A stretch of DNA of 64,000 bases, from NCBI GenBank assembly GCA_948443805.1, contig CAOJUB010000001.1, positions 62,001-126,000 of the forward strand. Reading direction: 5' to 3'. The stretch comes from an uncultured Clostridia bacterium. GTDB lineage: Bacteria; Bacillota; Clostridia; Oscillospirales; UBA644. The translations under genes were made by a program, and so were the position numbers. Of the stretch, positions 9,661 to 58,914 are shown one piece after another (the stretch's first letter is position 1; each line of letters starts with the position of its first letter). The notes under the pieces were generated by a model. It saw nothing but the letters and a program-made list of their open reading frames with translations, did no database searches and was not told the origin of the DNA.

Positions 9661-9696
9661 GGAAAAAAGGAATCTCGAAAGAGATTCCTTTTTTCC
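9661..9696. terminator. Bidirectional intrinsic terminator-like hairpin (repeat copy 1)
   Basis: GGAAAAAAGGAATCTC-GAAA-GAGATTCCTTTTTTCC perfect 16-bp stem. Confidence 0.8.
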
Positions 9697-9788
9697 AGGG
9701 GACAATTTCAGAAGAAGAATGAAAAAGTTATTTCTGTTCTCGTTATGGCTATAGTATACCCGTGTTTCCTTGAATCAAACTTGAAAAA
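9661..9788. repeat. Direct repeat copy 1 (~120 bp hairpin plus tail)
   Basis: Near-identical to 9831-9957: GGAAAAAAGGAATCTC...GACAATTTCAGAAGAAGAATGAAAAAGTTATTTCTGTTCTCGTTATGG..AGTATACC..CTTGAATCAA. Confidence 0.9.
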
Positions 9789-9830: not shown

Positions 9831-9957
9831 GGAAAAAAGGAATCTCAAAAGAGATTCCTTTTTTCGGGGGACAATTTCAGAAGAAGAATGAAAAAGTTAT
9901 TTCTGTTCTCGTTATGGTTACAGTATACCGTTCTTTTCTTGAATCAACCTTGAAAAT
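9831..9957. repeat. Direct repeat copy 2, offset 170 bp from copy 1
   Basis: Same hairpin and downstream block, with few substitutions and one indel. Confidence 0.9.
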
Positions 9958-21262: not shown

Positions 21263-23035
21263 ATGATGAAAAAAATAACGGCGTTGTTTCTTTTGATTGG
21301 CATGTTGCTTTCTTTTGCGGCAGGATGCAAAGAATATATCCCCCCTGAATCGGAGATCCGGGAATATGATCCGGACGCGAAACGGGAATGCGTGGAGTAC
21401 CGGGACGAGGGAATTTACGGCTTTGGCGTTTACAGAGATGGAACGGCGGTGATTACTTTCGTAAACGCTTCGGGGGATATTGAGATTCCCTCTTCGGTCG
21501 GCGGATATCCGGTAACGGCGCTCCGGGAAGATTTGTTTTCCGAACGGTCGGATATCACTTCCGTAACGATTCCGGAATCGGTGACGGAGATCGGCGACTA
21601 TGCTTTTTACGGCTGTTCTTCTTTGAATACGGTTACGCTTCCGGCTACAGTTTCGGAAATCGGAACCGGCGCTTTCAATAAAACGCCCTGGCTGGAAAAC
21701 AGCACGGAAACGTTTTTGATTGTCGGCGACGGGATTCTTTTGCGCTATCAGCCGGGTGACGAGACTGGAAAGCCTGCGGTCGAGGTTCCGGAAGGGGTCA
21801 AGAAAATCGGCGCGTACGCTTTTTATTCGACTCCGGTTTCATCGGTCCGGATTCCGGAAGGCGTTACTTCGATCGGCGCTTACTCGTTTCATCATTGCGA
21901 ATATCTGACCACGGTTGCCATTCCTTCCACGGTGACCGAACTCGGTATGGGGGCTTTCAGTAACTGCGGCGCGTTGACGAGGGCGGAAATCCCGGAAGGG
22001 GTCGAGGTTCTGCCGGATGCGGTATTCTCGGAATGTTATTCGCTGTCTTCGGTAAATATCCCGAAAAATACGTATTATATCGGGGATTCTGCTTTTTATG
22101 CCTGCTATCTGGTTTCCGAACTGACGATTCCGAAAACGGTGACGGAGATCGGCTTCGAGGCCTTTACCGATACGGCGTGGGAAAAGAACCTGACCGGGGA
22201 ATTTGTCGTTGTCGGGTATGGGATTTTACTGAAATACAACGGAAATCAGGAAACGGTTCGGATTCCGAAAAAAGTGCTGGAAATTTCGTATGCCTTTAAA
22301 GATAATGACACGGTGAAATATATTCATTTCAGTGAGAATATCCGTCAGATCGGCAAAGGAGCGTTTTATAACTGCAAAAAACTTCTGTCTGTTGAAATAC
22401 CAAATACTGTTAAAAAACTGGGCGCAATGGCATTTTTCGGTTGTGAGAGCTTGAATTCGGCAGTCTTGCCGGAAGAACTTTCCGAGATCGGTTTTGCTGC
22501 CTTTTCCGGATGCAAAAGTTTGGTTTCGGTTAATTTTCCTGACGGGCTTGCGGAAATACCGTCTTCTTGTTTTAAAGAGACTTCGATTTCGGAATTCACC
22601 TTTTCTCCCAATGTCCGGGTGATCGGCAGCAGTGCTTTTGAGGGATGTGAGAAAATCACCTCGCTGACAGTGCCGGAAACGGTAACCGAAATCGGCGACG
22701 ATGCTTTTCATAAATGTACATCACTGGAAACGATTGAGCTTTCCGCGAAAATAGACCGGATCGGGTTGGGGGTATTTCAGTCCTGTACTTCGCTGAAAAC
22801 AATAGTGATTCCCGAGGGGGTTCAGCGGCTGCACCTTGCTTCGTTTTGGAACTGTACTGCTTTGGAACGGATTGTCCTTCCTGCTTCTCTTTCGGAAATT
22901 GGCGCTTACGCTTTTGAGAAATGCGAGAATCTGCAAACGATTTGTTTTGCCGGTACGCAGCCGCAGTGGGAGGCCGTTGCCGTGAACGACAGCAACGATC
23001 TTTCTTCGGTTTCGGTTGTTTATGACTATCGTTAA
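21263..23035 (+). CDS. BspA-type (LRR_5) leucine-rich repeat lipoprotein
   Basis: Lipobox-like LLSFAAGC; repeated SVTIPESVTEIGDYAFYGCSSLNTVTLP-type units. Confidence 0.9.
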   Translation: MMKKITALFLLIGMLLSFAAGCKEYIPPESEIREYDPDAKRECVEYRDEGIYGFGVYRDGTAVITFVNASGDIEIPSSVGGYPVTALREDLFSERSDITSVTIPESVTEIGDYAFYGCSSLNTVTLPATVSEIGTGAFNKTPWLENSTETFLIVGDGILLRYQPGDETGKPAVEVPEGVKKIGAYAFYSTPVSSVRIPEGVTSIGAYSFHHCEYLTTVAIPSTVTELGMGAFSNCGALTRAEIPEGVEVLPDAVFSECYSLSSVNIPKNTYYIGDSAFYACYLVSELTIPKTVTEIGFEAFTDTAWEKNLTGEFVVVGYGILLKYNGNQETVRIPKKVLEISYAFKDNDTVKYIHFSENIRQIGKGAFYNCKKLLSVEIPNTVKKLGAMAFFGCESLNSAVLPEELSEIGFAAFSGCKSLVSVNFPDGLAEIPSSCFKETSISEFTFSPNVRVIGSSAFEGCEKITSLTVPETVTEIGDDAFHKCTSLETIELSAKIDRIGLGVFQSCTSLKTIVIPEGVQRLHLASFWNCTALERIVLPASLSEIGAYAFEKCENLQTICFAGTQPQWEAVAVNDSNDLSSVSVVYDYR

Positions 23036-23100: not shown

Positions 23101-23286
23101 TTTTTCTTTTTTTGCAACACCAATTGTTTTGTCTGTTCCCGGACGGCCGCCTGAACGGCTGCGGTGTTGTCTTTCCCCGTTTGCGCTATGCTTTTTTCCA
23201 AGGAAGGCCGGGCTTCTTTGGGAGGAAATGGAAAACTTTTTTGAAAAATCGGCGGGGGAAATATTTACAAGGGCGAAAAAATGTGG

Positions 23287-23440
23287 TATAATATATGCAG
23301 GAAATCATTGTTTCGCTATGATTTAGCGGCGCTGCCGCATCATGCTACGCATGACCTGTATTATTGACGGCCTCGCAAAAATGTTCTTGCAAGCAAACAT
23401 TTTTGCTTCATGGTATAATAAAGAACAGTAAACTGTTCTT
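23287..23440 (+). repeat. Structured palindromic repeat, copy A
   Basis: TATAAT, 7-bp stem enclosing three hairpins (23295-23361), 11-bp inverted repeat (23375-23406), TGGTATAAT, then AAGAACAG-TAAA-CTGTTCTT; homologous to the reverse complement of 31365-31556. Confidence 0.85.
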
Positions 23441-31104: not shown

Positions 31105-31259
31105 GGATTGTCTTCCTTTCTTCAATGGAATCGGGTTGTTTTCCAGCAGGGACATTTTTGCGGTGTGATTTTATATTGCAGCCGTGCTCTGTGCGGAGCG
31201 GCAAGGTCGCAAAGTTGTGCCATACAGGATTTTTCTATACATGCCATGCTGTGCGTTTT

Positions 31260-31662
31260 TTTTAGAACAACTTGTTGTTTTGATAAAACTGTGAATTTTG
31301 CACCGGAAAAAAAGAGGTTATCCGGAACGGAATTTCAACCGAATGGTTGAAACGCTTTTTTCCTAAGAACAGCTTGCTGTTCTTTAGAACAAGCTTGCTG
31401 TTCTTTATTGTACCATGGAGAAAAAATGCTTGCTTGCATGCAAATACTATTTGCATTGGCATTCTTTGCGAGACCGTCAATAGACACAACTGTGCGAAGC
31501 ACAGAGCGGCAACGCCGCTAAATCAATGCAAAGCAATGATTTATGTGTCTATTATACCATGAATTTCGCACCGGAAAAACACCGGCGGCGCAACGCGCTG
31601 TTCGGCTGGATAGCCGAAAGATTTTTTTCCTAAGAACAGTTTACTGTTCTTTATTATACCAT
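31260..31662 (-). repeat. Structured palindromic repeat cluster (copy B plus two copies of a second module)
   Basis: Minus strand holds a homologue of copy A (31365-31556) flanked by two related modules (31262-31384 and 31556-31662) with AAGAACAG..CTGTTCTT palindromes and GGTATAAT/GGTACAAT motifs. Confidence 0.85.
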
Positions 31663-31867
31663 ATTTTTTCTCGCTTGTAAATATTTCCGGGGAAATGATC
31701 TTTCCTTGTTTTTCGTCTGAATTTTTCGACATTTTTCTGAATTTGTTTTTTCCCCTCTTGAACCGTAATAACCGGCAGGTTTATAATAATAAGGTAATTT
31801 TCGTTTTTTCGGCGGTAAATTTCTGTATGATGTCGGCGGAAAGGCAAGGCGGTTGGGAGATGGTTTC

Positions 31868-33268: not shown

Positions 33269-35092
33269 ATGCATCATTCATCCTGTCAATCCGGAAATAA
33301 AAGTTCAGAAGGCCTGAAACCAAAGAGCTTCCGGCCAAAACGCCGGCATTCTTTTTTTGCGCTTCTGCTGGCTGCGGTGCTGTTCGTCGGGCTTCTGCCG
33401 ACGGTTTCGCTGCCGATCACGGCGGCTTCTCCGGCGGCGGATTTCGAGTTTGACGAATCGATCGGCATGATTACAAAATATACCGGTTCAGCAACCAATG
33501 TTGTGATCCCGGAAACAATCAACGGGGTGACGGTTACGGCGATCGGTATGGAGGCTTTTGCCGGCTGTTCTTGGCTGACCAGCGTTTCGATTCCGAACAG
33601 TGTTGTGACAATTGGCGGTGCGACTTTTTCTGGTTGTTCTTCGCTGACCAGCGTTGCTATTCCGGACAGCGTGACGGCAATCGGTGTGGCGGCTTTTGCC
33701 GGCTGTTCCTCGCTGACCAGCGTGACGATTCCGGAACATGTGACGGAAATTCGATATGCGGCTTTTAGCCGCTGTTCTTCTTTAGTGGAGATTCGGGTGG
33801 CGGAAAACAATCCGGCGTATTGTTCTGTCGACGGCGTTTTGTTTTCGAAGGATCAGAAAATGATTTGTAGCTATCCGGCAGGACGTTCGCAAAAAAACTA
33901 TGCGATTCCGGCTGGTGTGTCGGACATCTGCTATGAGGCTTTTGCCGGTTGTTCCGCGCTGACAAGCATTACGATTCCGGAAGGTGTGACAGGAATCGAA
34001 TATCAGGCTTTTGCCGGCTGTTTGTCCTTGACAAGCGTAACCATTCCGGAAAGTGTGACGGCAATTGGCGGCGGGGTTTTTTATTCCTGTTCTTCGTTAT
34101 CAGAGATTCGGGTAGCGGAAAATAATCCGGCGTATTGCTCTGTTGACGGCGTTCTGTTTTCGAAGGATCAGAAAACGATTTACACCTACCCGGCTGGACG
34201 TTCCGAAAAAAACTATGTGATTCCGAACTCTGTGCAATACATAGCCGCTTGGGCTTTTCAGGGCTGTTCCTCGCTGACCGGTGTGACAATTCCGAATGGT
34301 GTAGCCGAGATCGGCAATGGGGTTTTTTCCGACTGTTCTTCGTTAGCAGAGATTCGGGTCGAGGAAAGCAATCCGGCATATTGTTCTGTCGGCGGCGTTC
34401 TGTTTTCGAAGGATCAGACAACAATTTACAGCTATCCGGCCGGCCGTACCTCAAAAAGTTATACGATTCCAGACAGTGTGCAATATATCGCCGCTTTTGC
34501 TTTTCAGGGGTGTTCTTCGCTGACCAGTTTGACGATTCCGGTTCGTGTGAAAAATATCGGCTATAAAGCTTTTTCTCAGTGTTCTTCGCTGACCAGTTTG
34601 ACGATTCCGGACGATGTGCAGTCTGTTGCTGATCTGGCTTTTTCCGGCTGTGACGCCCTGTCAAGCTTGCATGTCCAGGACAGCGAGGGGCGGATTCTTC
34701 TTTCCTTCTTGGTATCGATGAATAATCTTTTCTTTCCGGGGACAGGGGAGAAAGAGACGGATATTCAAATCCTTTATTCCGGTACCAGGGAAGCATGGAA
34801 TTCGATTCCTATTGGGTACGGTTATCTTCGGGATTATTTAACCGCAAGAGTCGTTTTTATTTCTTCTGAGGTTTTTATCTGGGGCGATGTGGACGGAAAC
34901 GGCAAAGTAGAAACGAAGGACAAGGTTTTGATTTCCCGGTATCTGGCAAAATGGACGATGAACGGCGGTTTCAATCAGGCAGCGGCCGATTTCAATAAAG
35001 ACGGCGACGTTACCTCGGCCGAAGCGGTTGTTTTAGCGCGCTATCTGGCCAAATGGACCAATCTGCCGTATCCGGTTGGACAGCTGGCATAA
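33269..35092 (+). CDS. Secreted BspA-type LRR protein with C-terminal dockerin
   Basis: Signal peptide FFALLLAAVLFVGLLPTVSLPITAASP; many LRR_5 units; WGDVDGNGKVETKDKVLISRYLAKWT and ADFNKDGDVTSAEAVVLARYLAKWT dockerin repeats. Confidence 0.9.
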   Translation: MHHSSCQSGNKSSEGLKPKSFRPKRRHSFFALLLAAVLFVGLLPTVSLPITAASPAADFEFDESIGMITKYTGSATNVVIPETINGVTVTAIGMEAFAGCSWLTSVSIPNSVVTIGGATFSGCSSLTSVAIPDSVTAIGVAAFAGCSSLTSVTIPEHVTEIRYAAFSRCSSLVEIRVAENNPAYCSVDGVLFSKDQKMICSYPAGRSQKNYAIPAGVSDICYEAFAGCSALTSITIPEGVTGIEYQAFAGCLSLTSVTIPESVTAIGGGVFYSCSSLSEIRVAENNPAYCSVDGVLFSKDQKTIYTYPAGRSEKNYVIPNSVQYIAAWAFQGCSSLTGVTIPNGVAEIGNGVFSDCSSLAEIRVEESNPAYCSVGGVLFSKDQTTIYSYPAGRTSKSYTIPDSVQYIAAFAFQGCSSLTSLTIPVRVKNIGYKAFSQCSSLTSLTIPDDVQSVADLAFSGCDALSSLHVQDSEGRILLSFLVSMNNLFFPGTGEKETDIQILYSGTREAWNSIPIGYGYLRDYLTARVVFISSEVFIWGDVDGNGKVETKDKVLISRYLAKWTMNGGFNQAAADFNKDGDVTSAEAVVLARYLAKWTNLPYPVGQLA

Positions 35093-57572: not shown

Positions 57573-57774
57573 AGAGAAGGTTTTACAAAATTTTCGTTTT
57601 TGAGGACCGGCGCTTTCCCGGGAAAATATTTACAAGCAGGCAAAAATATGCTATAATAAAAAAAGATAATTCCCTGCGGACAAGGTTTGCCGCTTTCTTT
57701 TTTCAGTAATGCTACGGTTTGGGGTTTTCGGCGGGGATTTTTGCGATAAAAATGGTACAGATGGGAGATATATC

Positions 57775-58914
57775 ATGAAAAGATTCTTTACTTCCGAATC
57801 GGTCACGGAAGGGCATCCGGATAAAATTTGCGATCAGATTTCCGACGCGGTTCTGGATGAAATCCTGAAAGACGATCCGAAAGCCCGGGTGGCTTGTGAA
57901 ACGATGGTTACAACCGGTATGATTATGCTGATGGGGGAAATTTCCACCTCCTGTTATGTCGATATCCCGAAAATCGCCAGAAGCGTCATCCGGGAGATCG
58001 GTTACGACCGGGCAAAGTTCGGGTTCGACTGCGATACCTGTTCGGTTCTTACGGCGATCGATGAACAGTCTCCGGATATTGCGCTCGGTGTGGACCGCGA
58101 GGGCGCGGGCGACCAGGGCATGATGTTCGGGTATGCCTGTGATGAGACCGAAACCTGTATGCCTATGCCGATTTATTACGCGCATCGTTTGGCGAAACAG
58201 CTGACCTATGTCCGGAAAAAAGGAATTTTAGGATTTCTCCGTCCGGACGGTAAAACGCAGGTAACCGTAGAATATGACGGAGACAAGCCCGTGCGGATCG
58301 ATACAATCGTTGTTTCCTCGCAGCATTCGTCTCAGGTCAGCCAGAAATCGATCCGGGAGGGGATTGTTGAAGAGGTTGTCAACAAGGTTATTCCGGCCGA
58401 GTTTATGGATGAGAACACAAAAATCCTGGTAAATCCTACCGGTCAGTTCGTGGTCGGCGGCCCGCAGGGAGACAGCGGTTTGACCGGCAGAAAAATTATT
58501 GTGGATACGTACGGCGGTTATTCCCGCCACGGCGGCGGCGCTTTTTCCGGGAAAGACCCGACGAAGGTAGACCGCAGCGCAACTTATATGGCGCGTTATG
58601 TTGCGAAGAATCTTGTCAGAGCCGGCATCGCCAAACGGTGTGAAGTGCAGCTTGCTTACGCCATCGGCGTTGCGGAACCGGTTTCTGTTTTTGTAGAAAC
58701 TTTCGGTACCGGCATCTGTTCCGAGGAAGAGATTGCGTTGGCTGTCCGGAAAATTTTTGATCTGACGCCGGCAGGGATCATTGAAGAACTGGATCTGGCA
58801 AAACCGATTTATAAGGCGCTTTCCGCTTACGGCCATATCGGCCGCGAAGAACTGGGTGTTCGCTGGGAAGACTGCGACCGGGTCGACGCGCTGAAAGAAG
58901 CGCTTGGGTTATGA
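57775..58914 (+). CDS. metK: S-adenosylmethionine synthetase
   Basis: [53 protein letters not shown]. Confidence 0.98.

Follow-up and report, generated by a model that had tools for sequence, protein, structure and literature searches.

Elements in the form of small, non-autonomous hairpin repeats are already known, and several described systems resemble in part the repeat unit analyzed here. Bacterial MITEs (Correia/NEMIS, RUP, BOX) are short, dispersed and non-coding and can carry promoter parts, whereas this element is without terminal inverted repeats and inserts at a defined sequence, a promoter element. Putative mobile promoters are promoter-containing sequences that have spread upstream of unrelated genes, but the boundaries of the present element are exact, its only mobile promoter part is the -10 box, and its cargo is a conserved fold. 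Integron cassette arrays consist of head-to-tail units behind one promoter, with folded sites, while the units described here are without cassette genes and form arrays that begin at many different promoters.

A partial likeness is also seen in REP/REPIN-RAYT systems, whose small, non-coding, intergenic hairpin repeats are likewise present in many copies, non-autonomous, and marked by compensatory changes. REP/REPIN units have a GT(A/G)G or equivalent head 5' of the hairpin, whereas the units here lack such a head and begin N-[stem] right after TATAAT; they also target -10 boxes in one orientation and can be near-identical across families, unlike REP elements, which are species-specific (PMC2817692, PMC6006769, PMC8049555). 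No RAYT was found in the host genome, and the RAYT-like genes of some carriers are not flanked by these ends. The nearest analogy is provided by IS200/IS605 elements and their derivatives, organized as target, hairpin with guide, second hairpin, and target-like end (PMC6006769). With the present element they share hairpins near the ends, a lack of terminal inverted repeats, and a target that precedes the left end and is resembled by the sequence at the right end, but the IS200/IS605 target is a tetranucleotide and the one here is a promoter box of ~9 bp. A second class of our elements (below) looks much like IS200/IS605, whereas class 1, to which the locus under study belongs, shows only an AAT/ATT pairing with its target. 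No Y1 transposase element with matching ends was found in the host genome or in the carriers examined, and because the enzyme is missing from the host and many carriers, the element cannot be filed as IS200/IS605, although by analogy it may work like one. TnGBS, ISLre2 and ISKra4 (Mutator-like p-MULT) likewise insert in one orientation and at a constant position with respect to sigma-A promoters (PMC3942029). TnGBS-type elements insert 15-17 bp upstream of the -35 box and have DDE transposases and inverted repeats (PMC3942029), while the present element splits the promoter just after the -10, measures ~130 bp, and is non-coding. Insertion exactly at a -10, combined with a -10 that is brought along and with more than 95% identity across families, was undescribed in the open-access literature searched; this negative, being limited to that literature, is weak evidence.

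The window, by which we mean the whole 64-kb stretch of DNA analyzed, is C1:62001-126000 of a 1.81-Mb MAG (35 contigs, 98.9% complete), hereafter the host genome. The original prediction placed a cloverleaf-like repeat at 23295-23361 (+, copy A) and 31550-31482 (-, copy B), and both copies are present at those coordinates with the letters given. The feature had been cut short, however: it covers the 5' half of a unit measuring ~127-150 bp, which for copy A runs from 23293 to 23419 (127 bp), and the predicted segment is contained in its 5' cloverleaf. Sequences reported as conserved flanks are conserved, but 23363-23410, which had been read as flank, is the conserved 3' hairpin of the unit itself. 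Also missed were TGGTATAAT at both ends and the character of the repeat as a dispersed, horizontally spread unit ending in -10 boxes. We propose that this unit is probably a non-autonomous mobile element that inserts into housekeeping-type promoters, directly 3' of their -10 hexamer. As far as comparison of the loci can demonstrate them, the boundaries at the -10, the -35 boxes, the stacking of units, their horizontal spread, and selection on their fold are established.

At the copy A locus (Table 1), the hexamer TATAAT at 23287-23292 belongs to a promoter with 11 of 12 consensus matches and TG before the -10, and homologues of the unit stop at the same places as copy A does. The bases AAT (23290-23292) of this -10 box pair with ATT in the outer stem. 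The solo dyad that follows the unit is probably a remnant of an a- or c-type unit. BspA-type leucine-rich-repeat proteins (21263-23035 and 33269-35092, the latter with a dockerin domain) flank the stretch bearing both arrays. Elsewhere in the window, a 98-bp direct repeat (9690-9787 and 9859-9956, 91% identical, 169 bp apart) is adjoined by inverted repeats.

Table 1. Features of the two element arrays (positions within the 64-kb window).
Feature	Position	Strand	Basis or remarks
Sigma-A-type promoter hosting the element	23264..23292	+	-35 TTTACA 23264-23269, 17 bp, extended -10 TGGTATAAT
Element copy A, type f, class 1, 127 bp	23293..23419	+	Begins one base 3' of TATAAT and ends with the following TATAAT
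5' cloverleaf of three hairpins, with an outer stem that extends into the -10 box	23290..23365	+	Covariation, fold
Conserved 3' module ATTGACGGCCTCGCAAAAATGTTCTTGCAAGCAAACATTTTTGCTTCA, terminal hairpin	23363..23410	+	In 39/391 genomes of the class
Second extended -10 TGGTATAAT, brought at the element's 3' end	23411..23419	+	
Solo copy of the 20-bp dyad (AAGAACAGTAAACTGTTCTT) that forms the first hairpin in units a and c	23421..23440	+	
Gene downstream of copy A: NUDIX-domain protein, 140 aa	23467..23889	+	PF00293, E 2.8e-14
Promoter of second array: -35 TTTACA, 17 bp, TATAAT 31658-31653	31653..31681	-	
Unit a: dyad, hairpin domain, own TGGTATAAT	31551..31652	-	
Unit f (copy B): longer 3' hairpin region, ends TGGTACAAT	31407..31550	-	
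Unit c: dyad doubled, 3' -10 decayed	31282..31406	-	
Degenerate class-1 copy	31155..31248	-	L089 1366-1459, 33 bits, E 7e-6

A search of the host genome with the copy A region gave 83 matches, and searches with this region and the neighboring repeats, in which the stretches around the matches were read, yielded ~53 related units of four subtypes at ~40 sites (f, 3 copies; b, 8; a, 14; c, 28). Types f and b are homologous, with a cloverleaf on the 5' side separated by ATTGA(C/A).. from a hairpin on the 3' side; in types a and c, a 20-bp dyad (AAGAACAG..CTGTTCTT) comes first, and the hairpin domain behind it has a long outer stem. Nearly every unit starts directly after a -10 hexamer, undecayed units end ...TGGTATAAT, and the element sequence CATGG regularly precedes the right ends. 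By reading, the ends of units a, b, c and f are not complementary, and terminal inverted repeats are therefore absent. Units are stacked head to tail, as in the copy B array (a-f-c, from 31652 to about 31282 on the minus strand) and at C7:50160-50564 (b-c-c), and together the unit types of this genome are one modular system. At C10:51222-51330, five tandem copies of the 20-bp dyad lie immediately 3' of a -10, suggesting that the dyad alone is able to multiply. Exact dyad patterns were found neither in genome_contigs nor in viral_contigs, sets from which records near the host genome may be left out, and the dyad seems to be genome-specific.

The -10 boxes at which arrays begin have the surroundings of functional promoters. 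A TTGACA-like -35 box (at least 5 of 6 matches), nearly always with a spacer of 17, accompanied the first -10 of 23 of 35 arrays, a count that is a lower bound because in a few others the true -10 escaped the script; by the same criterion, all 10 internal -10s lacked such a box, as did all 119 in shuffled DNA. Judged by these motifs, the first -10 of an array is part of a real promoter. Most sites in the host genome are intergenic. At 30 of 39, the longest ORF downstream, from crude ORF calling, runs in the direction of the units. The genes 3' of the two arrays are unrelated, one encoding the NUDIX protein and the other a protein without a Pfam match, so that homologous promoter regions stand ahead of non-homologous genes, as in putative mobile promoters. 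In their upstream part, three promoters of the window, at 23257-23293 (+), 31688-31652 (-) and 57620-57658 (+), are unusually alike (GGAAATATTTACAAG..AAAAAT.TG.TATAATA). The third precedes a putative metK (ATG near 57775) and, having no element, resembles an unoccupied target.

Selection on a four-way-junction fold, claimed in the original prediction from copies A and B, is supported by the larger set of homologues. Between the two copies, the outer stem (ATGCAGG/CCTGTAT versus AGACACA/TGTGTCT) does carry the three double changes reported, at positions 2, 6 and 7, and additionally one G.T to A-T change; three more double compensatory changes are present in hairpin 3, also as reported. With DNA parameters and no G.T pairs, the cloverleaf core folded more stably than 500 dinucleotide shuffles (z = -3.9 for A and -6.8 for B; 0/500 as stable). 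Among 48 class-1 homologues, in an alignment that was fitted to the model and leans toward it, both sides change in 27 of 29 pairs and 91.8% of cells pair, with a covariation score of 0.501 compared to 0.180 (sd 0.009) for shuffled alignments (0/500) and at most 0.106 for slid controls. Covariation was also found in independent alignments, one of units a and c (14/24 pairs) and another with 9/19 pairs. No Rfam 15 match reached the gathering threshold, the matches below it being at chance level, and the window contains no tRNA or tmRNA gene, in agreement with the view that the repeat is neither a tRNA nor a member of a named family; neither the covariation nor the Rfam result came out against the fold.

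The outer stem bears on the molecule in which this fold forms. The base after TATAAT covaries with the 3' arm (A-U 32, G-C 5, C-G 3, U-A 1), and the covarying outer-stem columns of the class-1 alignment are 8-150 and 11-147 to 14-144. Transcription normally starts ~7 nt after TATAAT, so that, for the inferred starts of the arrays, most of the 5' arm of the outer stem would lie outside the RNA. Given that the outer stem covaries 5' of the expected start and takes in the AAT of the -10, a fold in single-stranded DNA is favored over one in RNA alone, and this covariation is the main argument for it. Of the two alternatives in the original wording, "RNA or extruded DNA", the second is thus the more likely.

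The distribution of the element was revealed only by the structure model and the conserved 3' module, the sequence search of the family being blank. The host genus is represented by one genome in the set, and a DNA similarity search of 19 family members gave no match. A covariance model of the cloverleaf (R1), the search that the original prediction had called for, gave 69 matches, distributed over 21 genera and 27 of the 394 genomes searched in the order; among the loci that were read, most also showed upstream -35 boxes or the common 3' end, neither of which is part of R1. The 3' module was sought with a hand-made 65-nt consensus of the R1 loci, which had matches in 39 of the 391 genomes searched in the class, belonging to 27 of its 223 genera and to more than one order, and the unit ends and the -35 recur at these loci. 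A unit in a genome of another family (G194) is 96.3% identical to the C14 copy of the host genome over 135 bp without gaps, and the alignment is bounded by the TGG of one -10 and the TATAAT of the other. Such identity between families, with bounds at -10 boxes, points to the horizontal spread of a unit. A class-1 unit is also present on a viral contig (L362).

Other element families share the same plan. Two TGGTATAATA boxes 60-90 bp apart occurred in 19 of 394 genomes of the order, while the reversed pattern occurred in none, and a looser two-box pattern in named genomes matched mostly Clostridia (Oscillospirales- and Lachnospirales-type names). The order is taken to be Oscillospirales because its genomes have sequences in common with named records, for example G223 with Agathobaculum desmolans (L201) and G328 with L159. 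Many of the interiors are different hairpin families; those of 91 two-box clusters fold at -20.1 kcal/mol versus -10.4 when shuffled and pair with the left -10 over 3.7 versus 1.1 nt of 7. Two-box matches in viral contigs were mostly ordinary tandem promoters (mean difference -2.7), indicating that the pattern alone does not create the signal. The second class (L192, L305, L308; Anaerotruncus colihominis) has a large central hairpin, whose internal loops are conserved, between one -10 palindrome on the left and another on the right, with TATTATACC and TTATACCA 5' of hairpins. A. colihominis DSM 17241 has ~60 matches to this class, whose arrays contain up to six near-identical units. Where strain JM4-15 has several whole units, DSM 17241 has one -10 and a decayed unit between flanks that are ~93% identical, a strain comparison that demonstrates gain or loss of whole units at a -10 for this second class, which is not the class of the window. 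Further families with the shared plan, ACCTCA..GAGAACATTGTA.., ACGAGGAAAGCG..GTCGAGA.. and TCGACAGATATTATACC.., were seen at L126-L129 and L145 (G041, G106, G351, G363), at L204, L225 and L232, and at L189, L224 and L230. One two-box match, in a Saccharibacteria record (L185), has an unrelated cause, a CRISPR-like array whose repeat ends AATTATGGTATAAT.

Several described mechanisms could account for parts of these observations. Mobilization by a Y1 (HUH) tyrosine transposase, as for a non-autonomous element of IS200/IS605 or REPIN type, with the -10 serving as target on the left and as cleavage site on the right, would explain the order of target, hairpin and target-like end, the single-strand fold without terminal inverted repeats, and, in class 2, the position of TATTATACC and TTATACCA 5' of hairpins, like guide sequences (rule in PMC6006769). 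We consider this unlikely: no Y1_Tnp was found in the 98.9%-complete host genome, nor any Y1 over the cut-off in G185, G041, G106, G351, G269, G122, G287, G295, G194, G385, G266, G050, G165 or G296; Y1 genes are no more frequent in carriers (9/18, 7/17) than in relatives (9/20), and the Y1 elements of G335, G344 and G184 have other ends and are positioned after terminators. Integron- or phage-integrase-like recombination, in which a tyrosine or serine recombinase acts site-specifically on a circular form, would use the -10 as shared core, and it is consistent with a core directly repeated at each junction, with head-to-tail arrays free of terminal inverted repeats, and with folded sites, as in integron attC; we assign it a low probability. 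Still less likely is a MITE of a DDE transposon whose target duplication, AT-rich and 8-10 bp long, resembles a -10. The direct repeats of ~9 bp would suit it, and a few sites have the same rare variants on both sides (TAGAATA, TAAAATA, TACAATA), but sharing of variant bases between left and right -10 (5 versus 2.5 expected) was not significant (p = 0.08) and is only suggestive of target duplication, no unit has terminal inverted repeats, and the CATGG regularly found before right ends is element sequence.

The arrays might instead encode a structured 5' leader RNA, regulatory or stabilizing, that is copied as a ready-made promoter-proximal module, with selection acting on the RNA. All copies lie at expected transcription-start sites and point downstream, covariation is strong, and G.U exceeds A.C in the broad class-1 alignment (45 versus 22, p = 0.007), a small excess that would fit RNA-level selection, although the fitted alignment favors G.U. 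In units a and c of the host, however, G.T and A.C are equal (36 versus 32), leaving the wobble comparison mixed as a test of RNA-only selection. Since the outer stem extends over the -10 box and other bases 5' of the expected start, the downstream genes are unrelated, and several unrelated hairpin families occupy the same junction, we regard a leader RNA as an improbable explanation. Copying through RNA from the element's own promoter was rejected, because the first bases of every unit precede the expected start. Ordinary tandem promoters or chance similarity might be suspected from the closeness of TGGTATAAT to the extended -10 consensus, but the backward control pattern was zero in all genomes, the folds covary, and the sharp-ended 96% identity across families refutes this explanation, to which we attach practically no probability.

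For the reading that we prefer, a mobile element inserting 3' of the -10, we envisage the following mechanism. Insertion would always be oriented in the direction of transcription, and each unit ends with its own extended -10, TGGTATAAT, so that the target keeps a -10 on both sides and the gene keeps a potential promoter. The new -10 would limit damage to the host gene and would also be a new target, which explains how units come to stack head to tail. The moving form may be the folded top strand as single-stranded DNA, with -10 bases pairing with the element; a recombinase acting in trans would recognize the fold and join it to a -10 box, perhaps while the box is single-stranded in the open promoter complex. 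More tentatively, and with the odds somewhat against it, these repeats may form a new, Clostridia-wide class of mobile DNA: tiny folded elements that integrate at the -10, perhaps in the open complex, re-create a -10 at the opposite end, and are moved by a new recombinase.

The idea is made testable by A. colihominis DSM 17241, which is in culture, has a complete genome, and carries a version of the element particular to it, with ~60 matches. If correct, it would raise the question of whether the open complex is the target, would point to an undiscovered recombinase, and would provide a natural case of promoter-targeted integration at the -10 itself. A common element of gut Clostridia would then split promoter from gene with single-base precision at dozens of loci per genome, and would be the origin of many of the 5' leaders and tandem -10 boxes that these organisms have.
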